The notes below the pieces were generated by a model, which was given only the letters and a program-made list of their open reading frames with translations, searched no databases and was not told the origin of the DNA. A DNA stretch of 64,000 nt from Pirellulales bacterium (GTDB lineage: Bacteria; Planctomycetota; Planctomycetia; Pirellulales; Thermoguttaceae): positions 31,779-95,778 of the forward strand of contig JADLEL010000186.1 of assembly GCA_020846145.1 (NCBI GenBank). The letters are read 5' to 3'. Below are positions 8,145 through 64,000 of this stretch, in pieces; the first letter of the stretch is position 1, and every line of letters starts with the position of its first letter. A program made the translations under genes and the position numbers.

Positions 8145-8509
8145 TCATCCGGATAAAGCGTACCCGATGATTTGGTTTACCGGGAATTTCAAGGAATGAA
8201 TCGCAAGGAGCAATGGAATTGCGCTATCGAGCGCGGATTTCCTCGATTTCGGGCCGAAGGCCCAGCCGTTCGCCCAGCCCTGGGCAACGCCCAGGGGAAC
8301 GAGGCCCCGCCGCGTTAATTCCAGGCCCAACTTTCCCGGCCGGTCTCCTTCGGGAAGGTGAACGATTGGCCCGTTGGGCCGACGCGAAAATGTTTTGCCG
8401 CGCCGTTTTCCCCAGGCGTTGCCTGGGGCTGGGCGAACTGCCGGCCCTTTGGGCCGCCGCGGCCGCGTTCCAATGGCATTAATCGGTTAGGTACGCTTTA
8501 GCCGGATGA
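8145..8509. mobile_element. MITE-like element bounded by a 20-nt inverted repeat, containing a CCCAGG(G)CGTTGCC(C)TGGG repeat pair
   Basis: TCATCCGGATAAAGCGTACC at 8145-8164 vs reverse complement TCATCCGGCTAAAGCGTACC of 8490-8509 (19/20). Confidence 0.55.
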
Positions 8510-8577
8510 ACCGTAATTATTGAACGTCGTTAGCGTTGTTCGCCGTTCTCGGACGGCGGAAAGAAAGGAGATTTCGC

Positions 8578-9231
8578 ATGGCGCGATTGGCGCGGGTGGT
8601 GGCGGCGGGGATGCCGCATCATATAACGCAGCGGGGGAACCGGCGGCAGCCGACGTTTTTCCGCGACGAAGATTACGTCGAGTACCTGGAACTGATGGCC
8701 GAGTGGACGCACGAGTGCGACGTGGCGGTCTGGGCCTATTGCCTGATGCCCAATCACGTGCATCTGATCGCCGTGCCGAAGCGCGCGGACGGCTTGCGGC
8801 GCGCGATCGGCGAGGCGCATCGGCGCTATACGCGATACGTCAATTTCCGCGAGGGCTGGCGCGGGCATCTTTGGCAGGGACGGTTCGCGTCGTTCGTGAT
8901 GGACGAGCCGTATCTGCTGGCCGCCGCGCGGTACATCGAACTCAATCCGGTGCGGGCGGGGCTGGCCGATTCGCCGCGCGCGTACCGCTGGAGCAGCGCC
9001 CGGGCGCATTTGCGGGGCAAGGACGATCTCCTGGCGAAGGTCGAACCGCTCCTGGCGCTGGCCGAGAACTGGCGCCGCCTGTTGACGAGCGCGGCGAGCG
9101 AAGAGAAACTCAAGCTTTTCCGCGCGCACGAGACCACCGGCCGCGTGTTGGGCGACGGGGAATTTCAGAAGCGTTTGGAGAAGAAGCTCGGTCGTGTATT
9201 GCGGCGGCAAAAACCCGGCCCGAAAGGATAA
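8578..9231 (+). CDS. REP-associated tyrosine transposase (Y1_Tnp/RAYT, IS200-like)
   Basis: MARLARVVAAGMPHHITQRGNRRQPTFFRDEDYVEYLELMAEW...YCLMPNHVHLIAVP; HUH motif HVH. Confidence 0.95.
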   Translation: MARLARVVAAGMPHHITQRGNRRQPTFFRDEDYVEYLELMAEWTHECDVAVWAYCLMPNHVHLIAVPKRADGLRRAIGEAHRRYTRYVNFREGWRGHLWQGRFASFVMDEPYLLAAARYIELNPVRAGLADSPRAYRWSSARAHLRGKDDLLAKVEPLLALAENWRRLLTSAASEEKLKLFRAHETTGRVLGDGEFQKRLEKKLGRVLRRQKPGPKG

Positions 9232-23463: not shown

Positions 23464-26292
23464 ATGCTCATTCGAATCCTGTTTGCACTATCGGTCATCT
23501 CGGCGGTTTGCATCGCCGCGTCGCCCTGCGCGGCGGAAACCGGCGGCGCTCCCGCCTTGGTTGTGGCTGAAACTACCTGCGAATACGCCGTCAATCCCGT
23601 CGGAATCGACGTGCTTCGGCCGCGATTCACGTGGGTGCTCGATGCCGGGCGGCGCGGGACGATGCAGCAAGCGTATCGGGTGCTGGTGGCCGGTTCGCCG
23701 GAAAAACTCGCCGCCGATGCCGGCGATCTCTGGGACAGCGGCAAAGTAACTTCCGACGAATCGGTGAACATCGCCTATAACGGAAAGATACTTTCGAGCC
23801 GGCAACAGTGTTACTGGAAAGTGCAAGTCTGGGACGATCGGGGACATGCAAGTCCTTGGAGCAAGCCGGCAAACTTTGAGATGGGACTGCTGGAGCAATC
23901 GGAATGGCGCGGCCGCTGGATCGGCCTTGGCGGCGGCAAGACCGAGTTCGTTTCACCGCTTTTGCGGAAGAAGTTTTCGGTGGCCGGGCCGGTGAAACGG
24001 GCCACGCTCTATGCCGCCGGCATCGGCTGGTCGGAATATTATCTCAATGGAAAACGCATCGGCGACGCGGTGCTCGACCCGGCTACGACCGATTACGACA
24101 AACGAGTGCTCTATGTGACCCACGATGTCACCAAGATGCTGAAGACCGGCGACAACGCCTTGGGTGCGATGCTGGGCAATGGATGGTATTGCGCGCCGCC
24201 GCCCGATAAAGGCTACGCCGATTCGCCGCGATTGCTGTTGGAGTTGGTCGTCGAAACGGCCGACGGCAAGGCGCAACGACTTTCCAGCGACGAGACCTGG
24301 CGGGCGACGGCCGGTCCGATCCTCAAGAATGACATGTGGGGCGGCGAATCTTACGATGCCCGCCTCGAAAAAACCGGCTGGCTGGATGCGACTTACGACG
24401 ATTCGTCGTGGGACTCGGCGGCCGAGAAACCGCATCCCGGCGGACGGCTCGAGGCGCAAATGATCGAGCCGATCAGGGTCAATAAGACCTTGAAGGCGCG
24501 GAAGATGACCAATCCCAAGCCGAATGTTTACGTCTATGACTTCGGGCAATTCTTCGGCGGTTGGGCGAAATTGAAGGTCAAGGGTCCGGCCGGAACGAAG
24601 GTCACCCTGAAATACGCCGACACGCTCGCGCCCGACACCGGCCTGGTCGATAAGCAAGCGCACTATCAGATGTATAAGAAGGATGGCGCGACCGACTACT
24701 ATGTTCTCAAAGGCGATCCGGCCGGCGAAACTTACGAGCCGCGTTTCACTTTCCACCCGGTCCAATACGTCCAAATCGAGGGACTCCCGACCGCGCCCGC
24801 GATAACCGACCTCGAGGGCCGCGTCGTCTATTCCGACGTGAATATGGCCGGCGATTTCGAGTGCTCGAACGAGCTGCTGAACCAAATCCATCGCAATTGC
24901 GTTTGGACGTTCCAAAATGAAATGTACGGCATCGAACTCGACTGCCTGTTCCGCGAACATTGGGGTTGGCTGGTCACTTCCAGTGATGCCTCGACGTTGT
25001 TTTCCCGTAAGCACATCCCGCTTTTCTGGACGAAATTTTTAGACGATGCCAAAAACGCGCAGTACGCCGACGGCCACATTCCCGACGTCGTTCCCAATTA
25101 TCCCCGAAAGAAACGCTTTACCGGCGATCCCGCCTTTGCAGGCAACTATCCGCTCGTGGCTTGGTTCGTGTATCAAACTTACGGCGACCGCCGAATCTTG
25201 GAGGAGCACTACTTCTCCATGAAGCGCTGGGTGAACTATCTGACCACGCTCGCCAAAGACAACCTGATTATGGAGGGCGGCTACTATAACGATCACATGG
25301 TCCCCGGCGAAAAACCGGGCCAAGAGAAATTTCTTTCCACCGAAACCTCGGCGCCGATGCTCTGGTCGGGCTATTACTACTTGGGCAGCTGGATCGTCTC
25401 GCAAACGGCCAAAATCCTCGGACATGAAGCCGACGCCGCGACCTACGGCAAATTGGCCGACGATATCCGCGCGGCCATGAATAAAAAATGGCTCAGAGCG
25501 GCCGATCATTGCTACGCCAACGACACCCTGACCTGTAATATCTTCTCGCTGGCCATGGGCCTCGTTCCGGAAGAGAACCGGCAAAATATTCTCGACCACT
25601 TGGTCGATCAAATCACGAAGAAAGGTCGTGGCCATTTGATGATGGGCGATATCGGCGTCACCTGCTGCATGGACGCCTTGGCCGCCCTCGGACGTCCCGA
25701 CGTCCTCTACAACGCCGTGAACACCGTGGAATTCCCCGGTTGGGGCTATATGGTGAAACAAGGCGGTACGACGATCTGGGAGAGCTGGTCGGGCAATGTC
25801 CGACTCACGGGCAGCTTCGGAAAAGGACACATCAACTCTTACTGCGAATTCAGCATGCCGATGTTCACCTCCGTCGAAAAGCTCTTCCAGAACACCCTGG
25901 CCGGCATCGACGGCCCGCGTTATTTCGGCGCCCACTTGATGACGCCCGGTTTCCGCGAGATTCGCATTCGCCCGCAAGTCTTGGGCGATCTGACCTACGC
26001 CAACGCGCATATCCTCACGGTGCGGGGAATGGTGGCCGTCGATTGGAAACGAAACGAACGGGGCATTACGGTCAAGGCAACGATTCCGGTCAATGCCAGG
26101 GCCAAAATCAGCATTCCCAAGCTCGGACTGCACGATGTCCTCGTCGAAGAAAACGGCAAACCGGTCTGGCGGAAAGGAGCCTACGTCGGCGGCGCCGAAG
26201 GAATCACTGCCGGAAACGACGAACGGGACGATGTGACTTTCGATACCGGTTCAGGCACCTTCATTTTCACGCTTAAGGGAAGCGACAAATGA
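23464..26292 (+). CDS. Alpha-L-rhamnosidase (GH78-like), secreted
   Basis: Signal peptide MLIRILFALSVISAVCIAASPCAA; CEYAVNPVGIDVLRPRFTWVLD; YLNGKRIGDAVLDPATTDYDKRVLYVTHDVT; catalytic-domain DCLFREHWGW. Confidence 0.92.
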   Translation: MLIRILFALSVISAVCIAASPCAAETGGAPALVVAETTCEYAVNPVGIDVLRPRFTWVLDAGRRGTMQQAYRVLVAGSPEKLAADAGDLWDSGKVTSDESVNIAYNGKILSSRQQCYWKVQVWDDRGHASPWSKPANFEMGLLEQSEWRGRWIGLGGGKTEFVSPLLRKKFSVAGPVKRATLYAAGIGWSEYYLNGKRIGDAVLDPATTDYDKRVLYVTHDVTKMLKTGDNALGAMLGNGWYCAPPPDKGYADSPRLLLELVVETADGKAQRLSSDETWRATAGPILKNDMWGGESYDARLEKTGWLDATYDDSSWDSAAEKPHPGGRLEAQMIEPIRVNKTLKARKMTNPKPNVYVYDFGQFFGGWAKLKVKGPAGTKVTLKYADTLAPDTGLVDKQAHYQMYKKDGATDYYVLKGDPAGETYEPRFTFHPVQYVQIEGLPTAPAITDLEGRVVYSDVNMAGDFECSNELLNQIHRNCVWTFQNEMYGIELDCLFREHWGWLVTSSDASTLFSRKHIPLFWTKFLDDAKNAQYADGHIPDVVPNYPRKKRFTGDPAFAGNYPLVAWFVYQTYGDRRILEEHYFSMKRWVNYLTTLAKDNLIMEGGYYNDHMVPGEKPGQEKFLSTETSAPMLWSGYYYLGSWIVSQTAKILGHEADAATYGKLADDIRAAMNKKWLRAADHCYANDTLTCNIFSLAMGLVPEENRQNILDHLVDQITKKGRGHLMMGDIGVTCCMDALAALGRPDVLYNAVNTVEFPGWGYMVKQGGTTIWESWSGNVRLTGSFGKGHINSYCEFSMPMFTSVEKLFQNTLAGIDGPRYFGAHLMTPGFREIRIRPQVLGDLTYANAHILTVRGMVAVDWKRNERGITVKATIPVNARAKISIPKLGLHDVLVEENGKPVWRKGAYVGGAEGITAGNDERDDVTFDTGSGTFIFTLKGSDK

Positions 26293-26312
26293 GGAGCTGA
26301 AAAAGCTTCCGG

Positions 26313-26546
26313 TTACTCTTGGGGCACGAATACGCAGCGCATGCCGCGGTCGATGACTTCCTTTTCCACGAAGGCCGGCGAGCGGTAGGTCTTGCGATAC
26401 AGCCGATTCGTGGAGAAAATAATCACCACGCCGATGGAGCCGGATTCCAAGGCGGCGCGGAGATTCTGCAGCTCTTCCCGCCGCGAACTCCGGCCGGTCG
26501 CGCCTTCATCGACGAAGACCAATATAATCGGCGCAGGGCAGCCCAA
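26313..26546 (-). pseudogene. Serine recombinase (resolvase) N-terminal-domain remnant
   Basis: VFVDEGATGRSSRREELQNLRAALESGSIGVVIIFSTNRLYRKTYRSPAFVEKEVIDRGMRCVFV then stop; catalytic Ser region and C-terminus missing. Confidence 0.65.
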
Positions 26547-26926
26547 ATCGTGTTGAATGTGTGCTTATCCAATTGCCAAACAACCACGGACAACCACGAA
26601 CAACGAATTCCATCAGCGGAAATGCAAGTTCCCGCCAGTCAAAAACTTGCATTGCAAAGTGTTTAACAGTAAGGACTTGCGTAAAACAACCTCCGGACGA
26701 GAAGAAGCTTGCCCCCTCGTCTGGCGTTGGAAGATCATCGCCAGCTTCCAGCCGAGGGGATATACCCTTCGGCTCGCTCGGTTCGCTCAACTCGCGCGGC
26801 TCACTGGCTTGCCCCAACGAAACATAATCGTATTTGGAGGGTTAAATAGGGCATAGGGATTGCACAAATTGAAATCCAAGCCTAATTGTTTTATCATATT
26901 GGGAGTCAAGATTAATCCAAAGGAGA

Positions 26927-27376
26927 ATGTCTGTGAATAGTTCAACAAACAATCCACGTCGCGGCTTTACCTTGATTGAAGTCATGTTGGTCATGGTCAT
27001 CATCGTGATCCTGGCTTCGTTCGCCGTGGTCGCGGTGGGAAGAAACCGGGCGCGATCACAGATCAATCAGGCGAAGATTCAAGTAGGCCATTTCAAAACC
27101 GCCATCGAACTATTTAACATCGACATCGGCTACTATCCCAGCACCCAGTCGGGTTTGGAGTCCCTGCGCAACTGCCCGCCCGACATCCCCAATCCGGCAA
27201 AATGGGGACCGACCCCTTACATGGATACCGAGATTCCCTTGGACCCCTGGGATCAACCCTATCAATATTGCGCGCCGGGCAGAATCAATATCGATTCCTT
27301 TGATGTTTGGTCGCTTGGAGCGGATCGCCAGGACAACACGCCCGACGACATCGGCAATTGGCCGATGCAGCAGTAA
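26927..27376 (+). CDS. gspG: Type II secretion major pseudopilin GspG
   Basis: RRGFTLIEVMLVMVIIVILASFAVVAVG; YYPSTQSGLESL; DPWDQPYQYCAPG. Confidence 0.95.
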   Translation: MSVNSSTNNPRRGFTLIEVMLVMVIIVILASFAVVAVGRNRARSQINQAKIQVGHFKTAIELFNIDIGYYPSTQSGLESLRNCPPDIPNPAKWGPTPYMDTEIPLDPWDQPYQYCAPGRINIDSFDVWSLGADRQDNTPDDIGNWPMQQ

Positions 27377-27400
27377 GCGCCTATCCCAGAACCATCTCGG

Positions 27401-27473
27401 TTGGGGTGGCAGTTGTACTGCCACCCCTTGAATCGCCGGATAGCGGGGGATGGCAGTACAACCGCCACCCCAA
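27401..27473. repeat. Palindromic repeat pair (TTGGGGTGGCAGTTGTACTGCCACCCC...GGATGGCAGTACAACCGCCACCCCAA)
   Basis: Exact palindromic arms GGGGTGGCAGT/ACTGCCACCCC; related copy at 44151-44180. Confidence 0.8.
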
Positions 27474-27508
27474 CGAATTGCGGTTTGAGGATAAGTTCTA
27501 AGATCATC

Positions 27509-28180
27509 ATGGGCGATAAATACCGAGACTCGACGCGCCGCGGCCTCACGCTGATCGAGGTGATGTTGGTACTCGCTCTCATGGTCGTGATCGCCTCGTT
27601 CTGTTGGCCCGCGCTGAGCAGGGCCTTCTCCAGCCAGCGATTGAAAAAAGCGGCCGATATCGTGTGCACGCAATGGAGCAAGGCCCGCATCAAGGCGATG
27701 AGCGAAAACTGCATCGTCCTCTTCTACTATGAAATGGACGGCGGCCGATTCCGCATCCGGCAACTTAGCGACATGGACTCCCTCGCTTTTTCCCCAGACG
27801 CGGCGGCGGCCGATTCCAACGCGGCGCTCGGCGCGGTTGCGTCCGGCAGTCCGGCGGCCGAATCCGCCGGCGGCTCGTCGGATATCATCAATTATTCGTC
27901 GCCCGACGGCGTGCAATCGTTGCCCAAGGGGATCGTGTTTCGCGCCGGCCAAATCGAAAACGACAGCCGCGCCTCGACGGCGGACGTGGGACAGGTTTCC
28001 AACCTGTCGAGCGACGTGCTGTGGTCCGCCCCCATCTTTTTCTATCCCGACGGCACTTCCTCGAGCGTTCGCCTGCAAATCTGCAACGATCGCAACTTAG
28101 GCCTCGAACTCGCGCTCCGCGGCATGACGGGCGTCGCCCGCGTCAGCGATATCGGCGCCGCGGAGGGAGCCGTGCCATGA
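27509..28180 (+). CDS. gspH: Type II secretion pseudopilin GspH-like
   Basis: RRGLTLIEVMLVLALMVVIASFCWPALSRAF; position after gspG. Confidence 0.85.
   Translation: MGDKYRDSTRRGLTLIEVMLVLALMVVIASFCWPALSRAFSSQRLKKAADIVCTQWSKARIKAMSENCIVLFYYEMDGGRFRIRQLSDMDSLAFSPDAAAADSNAALGAVASGSPAAESAGGSSDIINYSSPDGVQSLPKGIVFRAGQIENDSRASTADVGQVSNLSSDVLWSAPIFFYPDGTSSSVRLQICNDRNLGLELALRGMTGVARVSDIGAAEGAVP
27986..28012. repeat. Partial GTAGGACAGGTTTCTAACCTGTC element inside gspH
   Basis: GTGGGACAGGTTTCCAACCTGTCGAGC; translated DVGQVSNLSS; same family as 28189-28245. Confidence 0.75.
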
Positions 28181-28821
28181 AATCCACCGTAGGACAGGTT
28201 TCTAACCTGTCGAGCACAAAAAGACAGGTTAAAAACCTGTCCTACCAGCCCGGTGCCATGCCCACGCTCGTCGTGGGCATGTTGCGGGATTTGGCCCATT
28301 TTCCTCATGCCCACGACGAGCGTGGGCATGGCACCCTCTTTCGTTCGTCGGGTCGCTCTGCTTTCACGCTGCTCGAAGTGATGCTTGCGCTGGCGATTCT
28401 CGCCGCCGCGCTCGCCGTGCTGGGCGAGTTCGCGCGGATGGGCCTGCGCAGCGCGAAAGCCGCCCGCGACCTGACCCGCGCCGAACTGCTCTGCGAAAGC
28501 ATCATGAGCGAAATTACCGCGGGCATTACCCCGCCCGATCCCGTGGAAAACGCGCCCGTCGTCGATCCCGTAACAGGCTCGACCCTCGACGAAATCCAAA
28601 CCGACGACGTCGCCCCGTGGATCTATTCGATCGACGTGCAGTCCATCGACGAAGACGGTTTGCTGGCGGTAAAAGTTACCGTAGCGCAAGAACTCCCCCC
28701 CGCGCAGCGCCCCGCGAGTTTTTCCCTCGTTCGCTGGATGCCCGATCCCATGCTCGACGTGCTCTACGGTTCCGCGGAGAGCGGTTCGTCGAGCACGCAA
28801 AGCACGGGCACGACTCCTTAA
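28177..28821 (+). CDS. gspI: Type II secretion minor pseudopilin GspI-like with repeat-derived long leader
   Basis: ATGA overlap with the gspH stop; FTLLEVMLALAILAAALAVLGEF after a leader of about 59 aa. Confidence 0.85.
   Translation: MKSTVGQVSNLSSTKRQVKNLSYQPGAMPTLVVGMLRDLAHFPHAHDERGHGTLFRSSGRSAFTLLEVMLALAILAAALAVLGEFARMGLRSAKAARDLTRAELLCESIMSEITAGITPPDPVENAPVVDPVTGSTLDEIQTDDVAPWIYSIDVQSIDEDGLLAVKVTVAQELPPAQRPASFSLVRWMPDPMLDVLYGSAESGSSSTQSTGTTP
28189..28245. repeat. GTAGGACAGGTTTCTAACCTGTC palindromic element
   Basis: GTAGGACAGGTTTCTAACCTGTC...GACAGGTTAAAAACCTGTCCTAC; related sequences near 46343 and 59579. Confidence 0.8.
28252..28335. repeat. Palindromic element with perfect 30-nt arms
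   Basis: GGTGCCATGCCCACGCTCGTCGTGGGCATG...CATGCCCACGACGAGCGTGGGCATGGCACC. Confidence 0.9.
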
Positions 28822-28858
28822 ACCTGCCCTTGATGTTTGACCGAAAAAATTATTTACC

Positions 28859-30217
28859 ATGAAGATACGACTCATTCGCGTCTTGATTTGCCCCAAAGGG
28901 GCAGCCATTCTCCCAGCCCAGGGCAACGCCCTGGGGAGAGTGGCGGCTTGCAACCATTACTGGCCCAACGGGCCAACCGTTTCCGGCGAACGGCTGGCCC
29001 GTTGGGCCGTAAATTATTTTAGGGATTTCCAATCCCCAGGGCGTTGCCCTGGGCTGGGAGAACCTTCGGCCGTTGGCCGAAAATATCGAAGCCTTCCGAC
29101 GTCCAAGCGAAGTAGCGCAAACCATTCCTACCGGCGCGCCTTCACGCTCCTCGAAGTGATTCTCGCGTTGGGCCTGTCGCTGGTCCTGGTCGCCGCCATC
29201 GGCACCGCGATCGCCATGTACGTGCGGCTCTTCGATTCCGGCCGCACGAACATCGAGGAAGCGCAACTCGCCCGCTCCATTCTCCGCCGCATGGCCGACG
29301 ATCTCCGCGGCGCGGTGCTTCACAGCGAGGTGGACGTGAACCAACTCGTTTCGGCGGTTGCCGGTTCGACCTCCGGGACAAGCGCAGCTTCTTCGTCCGG
29401 TTCATCTGGTTCGTCCGCGAACAATTCCGCATCGGGCGGTTCCGCGATCGACGAATCCATGCTGGATCCTTCCGCGTTGGAAGAATCGCTCGTCGATGAA
29501 CTCACCGACCTCTCCGCCACCGGGCCGCAAAACGCCCCCGGCCTCTACGGCAATGCCTATCAACTGCAAATCGACGTCAGCCGCCTGCCCCGCATCGACG
29601 AGTACATGCTGGCCGGCGATCAAGGCGGTTCCGCCGTCGATCCGTTGACCGGCGGCCCGTCGGTCGATCGCGTGAGCGATCTCAGAAACGTCTCGTATTA
29701 TATTTTCGGCGACGCGGCCACGATCGCGATGGGCGCCTCCTCCGGGATGTCGATGGGCTTCGGGCTCATCCGCCGCGACATCGACCGCGCCGCGGCGCTT
29801 TACTCCGCGCAAAACGGAATGGAAGTCGATCTCGACGCCGCCGCCGATCCGATCGCTCCCGAAGTCGAATCGGTCCAGTTCGCTTATTACGACGGATACG
29901 ATTGGTACGATTCCTGGGACTCGACGCAAAACGGCGGCTTGCCGATGGCGGTCCAGATTACGCTGGCGATCGCCCGGCCGGCGAAAAAAAACGGCGAAAT
30001 ACCGCCTCCCGGCGTTTATTCGCTGCTGGTGAACCTCCCCCTCGCCAAACCAATCGCCTCGGCCGATATGTCCTCTTCCGGCATGGAAGAGTCCGCCGAT
30101 TCCCCGACCGGATCGCAGGAATCTCCCGCGCCAGCTCCCAATACGCCCGCGCCGACGCCCAACAACAATCCGAGTCCCTCGAATAATTCTTCCGGCCAGA
30201 AAAATCCAAAAACATAA
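28859..30217 (+). CDS. gspJ: Type II secretion minor pseudopilin GspJ-like with repeat-derived long leader
   Basis: RRAFTLLEVILALGLSLVLVAAIGTAIAMYVRLFDSGR; no in-frame ATG/GTG/TTG between the repeat and this motif. Confidence 0.85.
   Translation: MKIRLIRVLICPKGAAILPAQGNALGRVAACNHYWPNGPTVSGERLARWAVNYFRDFQSPGRCPGLGEPSAVGRKYRSLPTSKRSSANHSYRRAFTLLEVILALGLSLVLVAAIGTAIAMYVRLFDSGRTNIEEAQLARSILRRMADDLRGAVLHSEVDVNQLVSAVAGSTSGTSAASSSGSSGSSANNSASGGSAIDESMLDPSALEESLVDELTDLSATGPQNAPGLYGNAYQLQIDVSRLPRIDEYMLAGDQGGSAVDPLTGGPSVDRVSDLRNVSYYIFGDAATIAMGASSGMSMGFGLIRRDIDRAAALYSAQNGMEVDLDAAADPIAPEVESVQFAYYDGYDWYDSWDSTQNGGLPMAVQITLAIARPAKKNGEIPPPGVYSLLVNLPLAKPIASADMSSSGMEESADSPTGSQESPAPAPNTPAPTPNNNPSPSNNSSGQKNPKT
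28891..29080. repeat. CCCAGGGCGTTGCCCTGGG inverted repeat pair, in-frame with the gspJ leader
   Basis: CTCCCAGCCCAGGGCAACGCCCTGGGGA near 28909-28937 and CCCCAGGGCGTTGCCCTGGGCTGGGAG near 29035-29061, plus GGCCC-type hairpins. Confidence 0.88.
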
Positions 30218-30232
30218 TTCGCGAAGCCAGCG

Positions 30233-31948
30233 ATGATAAAGAATATCCTTCAATTATTCGTATCTTCCTTTCGCGCCGCGGAATGTTTTTCGGCCAAAGG
30301 CCGAGCGTTCTTCGGGAATAATTGGTCCGTTGGACCGAAAAGCGTTTTATGTCCACCCGTTCCCCAGGGCGTTGCCCTGGGCTGGGAGAACGGCTACCCC
30401 TTCGGGGCAAACTATCGAAACAAATCCCCGTCCCGCCGCGGCTCCGTGCTGCTCCTGGTGCTGGTGGTGATCGTCATTCTCTCGCTCGCCGGGTACACCT
30501 TTTCGGAATTGATGCTCACCGAACGCAAGGCGGCCGAACTGAGCGGGCAGAAAATCCAAGCCCAGGCCGCGGCGGAATCGGGCGCGCAATTCGCGCGCAT
30601 TTTCCTCATGAAAACCGCGGAAGACCAGACCCAACTCGGCGGCTGGTACGATAATCCGACCGTCTTTCGCGGCCTGGTCGCCGACGACGACAATCCCCGC
30701 CTCCGCGCGCGATTCACCATCGCGGCCCCCGTCGTGGATGAGCAAGGCATCGTCGTCGAAGGCCTGCGCTACGGGCTGCAGGATGAATCGTGCCGCTTGA
30801 ATCTCAACACCCTTCTGCTGGCCGACAAAGCCAAGCCCGGCAGCGCGCGGACGATCCTGCTCGGCCTGCCCGGCATGACCGAGCAGATCGCCGATTCGAT
30901 TCTCGATTGGATCGACACCGATTCCGAACCCCGCGAATTCGGCGCGGAAGCCGAATACTACGCGATTCTCTCTCCGCCCTACACCCCGAAAAACGGTCCG
31001 CTGGAAACGGTCGAGGAACTGTTGCTCGTGCAGGGCGTTACGCCCTGGCTGCTGTTCGGCTGCGACGCCAACCGCAACGGCCGCATCGATGCCGGCGAAC
31101 CCGATCCCATGAGCATCCCCGACGTCGATAATTCCGACGGCTCCATGACGCAAGGCTGGGCGGCGTATCTCACGCTCTACAGCATGGAAAAGAATCTCAA
31201 GCCCGACGGTACGCCCCGCATCAATATCAACCAAGACGACATGCAAACCCTCTATGACGAGCTATCCGAAGTGCTCACCGCGCCCGTCGTTACTTTTATC
31301 GTGGCCTATCGGCAAAACGGGCCTTATTCCGGCACTTCCAGCAACACGGCGAAACTCGCGACCGGCGAACTCGATTTGACGAAAAAAGCAAAAACGAAGT
31401 TGAAAACGATCCTCGACCTCGTCGGGGGAAAAGTGCAAGTGACTTTCAAGGGCGAGAAAAAAGCCACGATTTTGGAATCTCCCTTCCCCAACGTCCCCGG
31501 GGCGACGAGCGTTATTTTGACCAACTTGATGGATAATTGCACCGTCAATCCCGCGCCGATCATCCCCGGGCGGATCAACATCAACCAGGCGCCCCGCGTC
31601 GTGCTGGCCGGCATTCCCGGATTGACCTCCGACATGGTCGATCAGATACTTTCCACTCGCATTATGAATCCCGCCGAGGCCGACATCAGCCGCAGCTATG
31701 AGACCTGGTTAATCGACGAGGGAATCGTAACCTTAAAACAAATGAAGGATATCATTCCCTATGTAACGGGCGGGGGCAGCGTTTTTCGCGCCCAGGTCAT
31801 CGGCTATTTCGATCAGAAAGGGCCGGCCGCAAGGCTCGAAGTGGTGATCGACGCTACCGCAACGCCGCCCCGCATGGTATTCTGGAGAGATATCAGCCAT
31901 CTCGGCCGCGGTTACCCGGTCGAACTTCTCGGCACGGAAGCGGAGTAG
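30233..31948 (+). CDS. gspK: Type II secretion minor pseudopilin GspK with repeat-derived leader
   Basis: RRGSVLLLVLVVIVILSLAGYTFSELMLTERKAAELSGQ; GspK-like RLNLN and GRININQAPRVVLAGIPGL. Confidence 0.93.
   Translation: MIKNILQLFVSSFRAAECFSAKGRAFFGNNWSVGPKSVLCPPVPQGVALGWENGYPFGANYRNKSPSRRGSVLLLVLVVIVILSLAGYTFSELMLTERKAAELSGQKIQAQAAAESGAQFARIFLMKTAEDQTQLGGWYDNPTVFRGLVADDDNPRLRARFTIAAPVVDEQGIVVEGLRYGLQDESCRLNLNTLLLADKAKPGSARTILLGLPGMTEQIADSILDWIDTDSEPREFGAEAEYYAILSPPYTPKNGPLETVEELLLVQGVTPWLLFGCDANRNGRIDAGEPDPMSIPDVDNSDGSMTQGWAAYLTLYSMEKNLKPDGTPRININQDDMQTLYDELSEVLTAPVVTFIVAYRQNGPYSGTSSNTAKLATGELDLTKKAKTKLKTILDLVGGKVQVTFKGEKKATILESPFPNVPGATSVILTNLMDNCTVNPAPIIPGRININQAPRVVLAGIPGLTSDMVDQILSTRIMNPAEADISRSYETWLIDEGIVTLKQMKDIIPYVTGGGSVFRAQVIGYFDQKGPAARLEVVIDATATPPRMVFWRDISHLGRGYPVELLGTEAE
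30291..30409. repeat. CCCAGGGCGTTGCCCTGGG family element inside the gspK leader
   Basis: CGGCCAAAGGCCG...GGTCCGTTGGACC...CCCCAGGGCGTTGCCCTGGGCTGGGAGAA...CCCCTTCGGGG. Confidence 0.85.
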
Positions 31949-31987
31949 GGGAGAGGGATTAGGGGTTAGGGATCAGGGGATAGGGGA
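31946..31987. repeat. Heptamer tandem array (TAGGGGA consensus)
   Basis: TAGGGGA GAGGGAT TAGGGGT TAGGGAT CAGGGGA TAGGGGA; the first TAG is the gspK stop codon. Confidence 0.85.
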
Positions 31988-32266
31988 GGACATTCCAGCC
32001 GCTTGCGGATTAGCAAACCATCGCGAACTTGTTCACAATCCTCCCCCCAAACGGATTAAAAGCAATTCCTCCGCATACGATTATCCCCTAACCGACTATC
32101 TCATAAGACTTTACGATATATCCCCCGATTTTTTCCTTGAAAAGGAGCTATCCGCTTCGCTACTATAAACCTATGGCGATACATTCTTAATAAGTTTTTT
32201 GAGGAAAAACGGTAGAGGCTCCACGATGCCAGGGCCGAGGACGGCCCGGCTCGCTAAAGTTTCTTT

Positions 32267-36515: not shown

Positions 36516-36536
36516 GTTTGCAATCATCCTTCCCGT

Positions 36537-36637
36537 CGTTTAGCCCGGAGCCAACGGCGACGGCGTTTGGGGATATCTATTTATCGCGGTATTTCGCTTT
36601 TGCCCTAGCCCCGTCGCCGATGGTTCCGGGCTAAACG
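36537..36637. repeat. CGTTTAGCCCGGAGCCAACGGCGACGGCG palindromic element, copy 1
   Basis: Arms inverted around a variable loop; further copies at 47003-47105 and 63908-63993. Confidence 0.88.
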
Positions 36638-36656
36638 ATTCAAATGATTTCGTTGC

Positions 36657-46987: not shown

Positions 46988-47002
46988 GACGGTTATGATT
47001 CT

Positions 47003-47105
47003 CGTTTAGCCCGGAGCCAACGGCGACGGCGATTCGCGTTTGCCACGAAGAAAAATTGTCTGAATCCATCGTTTGCCGCCGTCGCCGTTGGCTCCGGGCT
47101 AAACG
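47003..47105. repeat. CGTTTAGCCCGGAGCCAACGGCGACGGCG palindromic element, copy 2
   Basis: Near-identical arms to copies 1 and 3. Confidence 0.88.
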
Positions 47106-47111
47106 AGCAGT

Positions 47112-63906: not shown

Positions 63907-63907
63907 T

Positions 63908-63993
63908 CGTTTAGCCCGGAGCCAACGGCGACGGCGGGCATAAGGGGCACTGGAAAACTCCACCCGCCGTCGCCGTTGGCTCCGGGCTAAACG
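63908..63993. repeat. CGTTTAGCCCGGAGCCAACGGCGACGGCG palindromic element, copy 3
   Basis: CGTTTAGCCCGGAGCCAACGGCGACGGCGGG...CCCGCCGTCGCCGTTGGCTCCGGGCTAAACG. Confidence 0.9.
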
Positions 63994-64000
63994 AAAAACT

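Follow-up and report, generated by a model that had tools for sequence, protein, structure and literature searches.

A hairpin repeat element in the probable translated leader of a minor pseudopilin gene, gspJ, of a Pirellulales bacterium

The gene for the type II secretion minor pseudopilin GspJ appears to have taken up a mobile repeat in a part of its product that would be discarded. We consider it likely that a non-autonomous hairpin element, probably moved by an HUH Y1 transposase, inserted in-frame in the gspJ leader, where it is read through and cleaved off. Prepilin leaders of type II secretion and type IV pili stay cytoplasmic and are removed by prepilin peptidase, hence the length and sequence of such a leader would be nearly free. 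In the proposed sequence of events, an element of the REPIN/MITE kind would have inserted in frame between ATG 28859 and the prepilin cleavage site, and the ribosome would read through it to give a leader of about 94 residues. This long leader would remain cytoplasmic until its removal by prepilin peptidase, and since mature GspJ would be unchanged, the insertion would be tolerated. In gspK the same leader niche would have accepted a truncated copy of the element, and in gspI two other palindromes. We infer the insertion event and the exact element ends, as well as translation through the element and leader cleavage. All positions are those of the window, i.e. the whole 64,000-nucleotide stretch analysed, unless another contig or locus is named.

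The gspJ gene (28859..30217, forward strand) was identified from its open reading frame, profile matches and operon neighbours. It carries the motif RRAFTLLEV, lies between gspI and gspK, and matches T2SSJ (E 6e-6) and N_methyl (E 5e-4), both slightly under the curated cut-offs, as well as a second gspJ model (E 4e-4); gspG, gspH, gspI and gspK were likewise identified by profile search. The weakness of the GspJ model matches could indicate that gspJ is decaying, the element being a mere insertion in a dying gene. Against this, the frame is open from 28841 to 30214 with a stop at 30215, leaving 452 codons intact, the mature region scores as coding by codon usage, and around it gspG, H, I, K, L and M are undamaged as well. 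We therefore regard decay as highly improbable.

The in-frame ATG, GTG or TTG codons ahead of RRAFTLLEV are ATG 28859, TTG 28883 and GTG 28940, with no others. A preliminary description had listed ATG 28859 and GTG 28940 only; both are indeed in frame, but TTG 28883 was missed. As this codon lies just outside the element, the argument for placing the repeat in the leader survives. In-frame CTG codons occur at 28931, 28994 and 29054, all within the element, and ACG 29099 is the sole in-frame near-cognate codon 3' of it. The same description had held that no start codon falls between the right arm of the repeat and the motif, and this was confirmed by scanning 29084-29155 in the three forward frames, which contain zero ATG, GTG or TTG. 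A single indel thus cannot make a local start, and a local start hidden by an indel was ruled out. ATG 28859 is the likely gspJ start, being located 37 nt past the gspI stop at an operon-typical spacing; no Shine-Dalgarno-like sequence was seen by eye at this codon. The first part of the leader (28859..28886, forward strand; MKIRLIRVL) precedes the element, is outside the modules common to the repeat family and would be ancestral. The element stretch then reads ILPAQGNALGR...FQSPGRCPGLGEPSAVGRK in the gspJ frame, and is followed by the leader remainder (YRSLPTSKRSSANHSYRRA; 29084..29140, forward strand), which is start-free in all forward frames. The prepilin peptidase cut is predicted after Ala (29138-29140), before FTLLEV.

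The element copy spans 28887..29083 according to a 42-copy alignment and the copy list, with ends uncertain by a few bases; the preliminary description had ended the right arm at 29080, short of the extent obtained when the outer hairpins are included. Its inverted arms (28908-28937 and 29033-29062) match at 30 of 30 positions, and the whole forms a chain of about 200 bp with six small hairpins. The left half consists of an outer hairpin, GCCCC-AAA-GGGGC (28890..28902; helix 1, 99.5% paired across the alignment with double changes in 3/5 pairs), an inner hairpin, CCCAGGGC-AAC-GCCCTGGG (28917..28935; helix 2, 97.6% paired with double changes in 4 pairs), and a central hairpin, GGCCC-AAC-GGGCC (28962..28974). 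The right half comprises the central hairpin GGCCC-GTT-GGGCC (28996..29008), the inner hairpin CCCAGGGC-GTT-GCCCTGGG (29035..29053) and the outer hairpin CGGCC-GTT-GGCCG (29067..29079), the last being mis-registered in the family alignment (helix 6) and 40% paired there. An Rfam scan of 26000-32000 returned four sub-threshold miRNA models, none on the element.

The repeat belongs to a family with dozens of copies in this genome, which is also abundant in one relative. Searching the 5.8-Mb genome with 28 nt of the right arm gave 15 exact matches, compared to 0 for the reversed control. With an 18-nt core and up to 3 mismatches allowed, there were 90 forward and 76 reverse matches, counts that include palindromic sites scored twice. 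We scanned 507 kb, made up of 59 of 60 stretches fetched around core matches plus the window and thus biased towards the family by design, and found 44 inverted pairs with common modules and halves 100-170 nt apart. The family plan is an outer, an inner (19 nt) and a central hairpin, then the same three mirrored, with variable spacers. A second full copy in the window (8239..8459), with variant stems CCCTGGGC/CCCCAGGC, adjoins a RAYT-like gene. No GTAG or CGTC guide tetranucleotide was noted at the hairpin foot when the 42-copy alignment was inspected by eye, unscored. A separate repeat family, TCGTTTAGCCCGGAGCCAACGGCGACGGCG, with inverted arms of ~30 nt, occurs at 36536-36638, 47001-47107 and 63907-63994.

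The element had been described as palindromic, and the 30/30 arms bear this out; covariation across the 42 copies, however, resides in the local hairpins and not in the long palindrome. Local stems contain 96 double-change cells compared to 28.8 in shuffled alignments, with a covariation score of 0.197 vs 0.068; the shuffles leave relatedness in, and slid controls, which were also read, reach a local-stem score of at most 0.102. Pairing of arm to arm gave 31 double-change cells vs 34.6 shuffled and a score of 0.076 vs 0.073, i.e. without excess, and the long-palindrome reading was rejected. A chain of local hairpins is the more apt description of the element. It resembles a REPIN or REP doublet in that a short hairpin is present as two inverted copies, genome-wide, and in that the hairpins are conserved via compensatory changes.

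It had also been pointed out that the element keeps the gspJ frame open over about 190 nt. It does, but this is nothing unusual in the family: the 44 copies have 127 open frames out of 264, compared to about 86 in dinucleotide shuffles, and genome windows have 2.3 open frames of 6, not far under the element value. None of the six frames contains a stop within the conserved modules, which can explain the open frames, and coding selection is not needed. The open gspJ frame through the element can be considered a by-product of its stop-poor modules.

Comparison with relatives sets the gspJ leader apart. The start nearest to the gspJ motif is 65 codons away, compared to at most 26 in relatives with a recognised gspJ motif, whose leaders are about 4-26 codons as measured by nearest start. 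No other gene in a set of 52 pseudopilin genes from this genome, namely 51 model-search matches and gspJ itself, has a distance this large. Comparison of the gspI-gspJ junction, a check suggested in the preliminary description, agrees: the gspI stop and the gspJ motif are 313 nt apart here, whereas six relatives have 20-68 nt, and two others have 165 and 209 nt. A GspJ-based search of the genome contigs gave 39 pattern matches and no relative, and hence no close element-free orthologue. The start-free region after the repeat, the operon-typical ATG 28859 and the short leaders of the relatives together give good support to the repeat belonging to the translated leader, provided that translation begins at an ordinary start codon. 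The repeat had been called an obligatory part of the leader, and with that proviso the claim stands, but a near-cognate start at ACG 29099 is possible. In that case the element would be an untranslated mRNA hairpin in the gspI-gspJ gap, and gspJ would begin with a leader of ~14 residues, which is within the range seen in relatives. It is also the case that every sampled full copy sits outside gene cores (0/44 lie inside a codon-usage core on the fetched stretches), and that many N-terminal REPs are actually extragenic (PMC3733652). Nonetheless, such a start would have to do without ATG, GTG or TTG in any frame 3' of the element, the frame is open through the element back to ATG 28859, and the layout recurs in gspI, whose ATGA-coupled start is located 5' of its palindromes. 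We consider the untranslated element unlikely.

The neighbouring leaders are similarly occupied. The gspI gene (28178..28821, forward strand; GspI E 1.8e-8) starts at ATG 28178, which is probably ancestral because it overlaps the gspH stop (ATGA). Two palindromes unrelated to the element lie between this ATG and the cleavage motif, one (GTAGGACAGGTTTCTAACCTGTC...) at 28189..28245 and a second (GGTGCCATGCCCACG..., with 30-nt perfect arms) at 28252..28335, making gspI the cleanest parallel to gspJ. A single GTGGGACAGGTTTCCAACCTGTC unit is located in the gspH body (27986-28008), reading ADVGQVSNLSSD; the same family occurs in the gspI leader. In gspK (30233..31948, forward strand; T2SSK E 1.7e-18, GspK E 2e-25) the order is ATG 30233, a truncated element copy (30285..30411) in which the outer hairpin is joined to the right half, and then SRRGSVLLLVLVV. 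This copy is read in a different frame from that of gspJ, giving PQGVALGWENG; that its peptide differs from the ILPAQGNALGR of gspJ had been claimed from the sequence earlier. A further palindrome (GTTGGGGTGGCAGTTGTACTGCCACCCC...) occupies the gspG-gspH gap at 27400..27474, 5' of the gspH ATG.

Palindromes are hence present at the four junctions GH, HI, IJ and JK, and within the stretch scanned none was listed immediately 5' of gspG. This distribution raises the question of whether the hairpins in the leaders and gaps of gspH, I, J and K have been retained because they reduce translation of the minor pseudopilins compared with gspG, an explanation that would also fit the predicted folding of the leader RNAs, which is far more stable than shuffles for gspJ (-163 kcal/mol, z -9.2) and has z -3.8 vs shuffles for gspK. 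The operon occurs in relatives without such hairpins, however, the palindromes come from unrelated families, and the covariation characterises the element family in general as opposed to the gspJ site. A role in lowering translation is, in our view, improbable.

Repeats occur in other leaders too. Three neighbouring pseudopilin genes on contig C30 have repeat-rich leaders, one of which (L145, 4914-5058) has 32-nt perfect inverted arms of AGTGGAG repeats. In the relative G036 (L016), a peptide of ~35 residues that ends in TGKxQAEPARQGVPRRSLGTR is common to the gspH and gspJ leaders and apparently comes from another repeat. The gspI leader of the relative G027 carries the same element family as gspJ, but TTG and GTG codons follow it, so the element is not obligatory in that leader. 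A half element was observed between the n-region and hydrophobic core of a putative signal peptide (MSIRIGL...LFAALIVISSTLARAQ; L042, 1875-1902, contig C78). Further leader candidates (L036, TadG-like; L034; L062) are ambiguous.

For genes facing a copy, we asked whether any start codon is left between the copy and the first hydrophobic segment or coding core. By an automatic rule applied to two genomes, no start is left after the copy in 7/18 genes with a hydrophobic N-terminus vs 0/19 others (p 0.003). L055, apparently a UDP-glucose dehydrogenase gene, is misclassified among the seven, and six remain without it; some exported genes retaining a start were scored as cytoplasmic. The rule itself is crude, was drawn up once the first cases were known, and uses class limits that differ and may favour the result. 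The data are suggestive of start-displacing copies favouring N-terminally hydrophobic over cytoplasmic genes in these two genomes.

The genome contains 12 Y1_Tnp matches. One gene (contig C24, 30646-31098), encoding 151 residues and scoring above the cut-off of NF033573 (IS200/IS605 model), sits between two full element copies, and its product has the motifs HVH and YIDGQAKHH. The latter corresponds to Y---Q--HH, the signature of TnpA-Y1 subclass 1.2 (Quentin 2018, PMC6006769), which is present in 20/21 loci inspected in this genome and relatives, the exception being a partial match. Up to 450 nt from the transposase gene, hairpins with stems of at least 8 reach a density of 2.08 per kb, compared to 0.16 per kb further out, and they flank the gene on both sides in 12/20 loci; the flanking stems vary in sequence between genomes with pairing retained. 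Among 59 relatives, element and transposase co-occur (16/20 vs 14/39, one-sided p 0.0014, uncorrected for phylogeny), with the element present in 4 genomes without a detected transposase homologue. The transposase gene of G027 again lies between two element copies. As with REPINs, the repeat is thus linked to Y1 genes: at the C24 locus, and in the window (contig C186), where a RAYT-like gene (8536..9231, forward strand; a Y1_Tnp protein with REP-associated tyrosine transposase as best match, below the curated cut-off) adjoins the variant copy. Taken together, an IS200-type HUH Y1 transposase probably moves the element as single-stranded DNA. The element-transposase-element unit adjoins an atpG-like gene both in G027 (L158, contig C142) and in this genome (G000; L038, contig C24), which suggests a conserved, perhaps domesticated, locus. 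Other Y1_Tnp genes of this genome (L101, L102 and L147) also have flanking hairpin repeats, a separate one for each gene: CACTGGCAAGATGCCAGTG, GGCACTCTCCGAGTGCC and CCAGGGGCGTAAGCCCCTGG respectively.

More tentatively, leaders of exported proteins in these bacteria may be a general safe site for hairpin elements spread by the subclass 1.2 transposase. If true, the elements would generate new long leaders that are cytoplasmic and either cleaved or N-terminal; the rule for harmless entry of mobile hairpins into genes would be a stretch that is removed or kept inside the cell, and an orphan transposase subclass would gain a link to a repeat family. For annotation this would mean that the start codon of an exported protein may be a long way upstream when such an element is nearby.

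Rickettsia and other bacteria are known to carry palindromic elements in-frame (PMC10969869, PMC3733652). The Rickettsia RPEs, as summarised in PMC10969869 (from Ogata 2000, 2002), are palindromic, about 150 bp and in-frame in protein genes. Compared by description, the present element is similar in being palindromic and may likewise have inserted in-frame, the gspJ frame being open through it without a later start, but many RPEs are described in gene bodies, whereas here all sampled full copies lie outside gene cores and only leaders are entered. REP-encoded residues at protein N-termini have been described (PMC3733652), and RU-2 forms part of a signal peptide (PMC2759123). The gspJ element shares with these the repeat-encoded residues at the N-terminus, but it lies ahead of a prepilin motif that is itself intact, and the signal is not made by the repeat. 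REP doublets associate with RAYT transposases (PMC3116915, PMC6006769); as in these REPIN/REPtron systems, inverted pairs of small hairpins are found here in many copies, mainly intergenic and flanking a Y1 HUH gene. In contrast, each unit here has six hairpins, and the apparent partner is IS200-type with the subclass 1.2 Y motif rather than a RAYT. Subclass 1.2, mostly from Cyanobacteria and Bacteroidetes, shares Y---Q--HH with the C24 transposase and was described as generally without typical flanking IS200 structures, and the hairpins that flank the gene here may or may not be IS ends; TnpA-Y1 class 3 includes Planctomycetes genes with flanking atypical structures and sometimes high copy number (PMC6006769). 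A literature search, mostly without subscription journals, gave no report of the element or of subclass 1.2 as a REP partner, which is weak evidence of novelty. Hence in-frame insertion is a known kind of event, while the cleaved leader as a recurring landing site and the apparent transposase partner look new.
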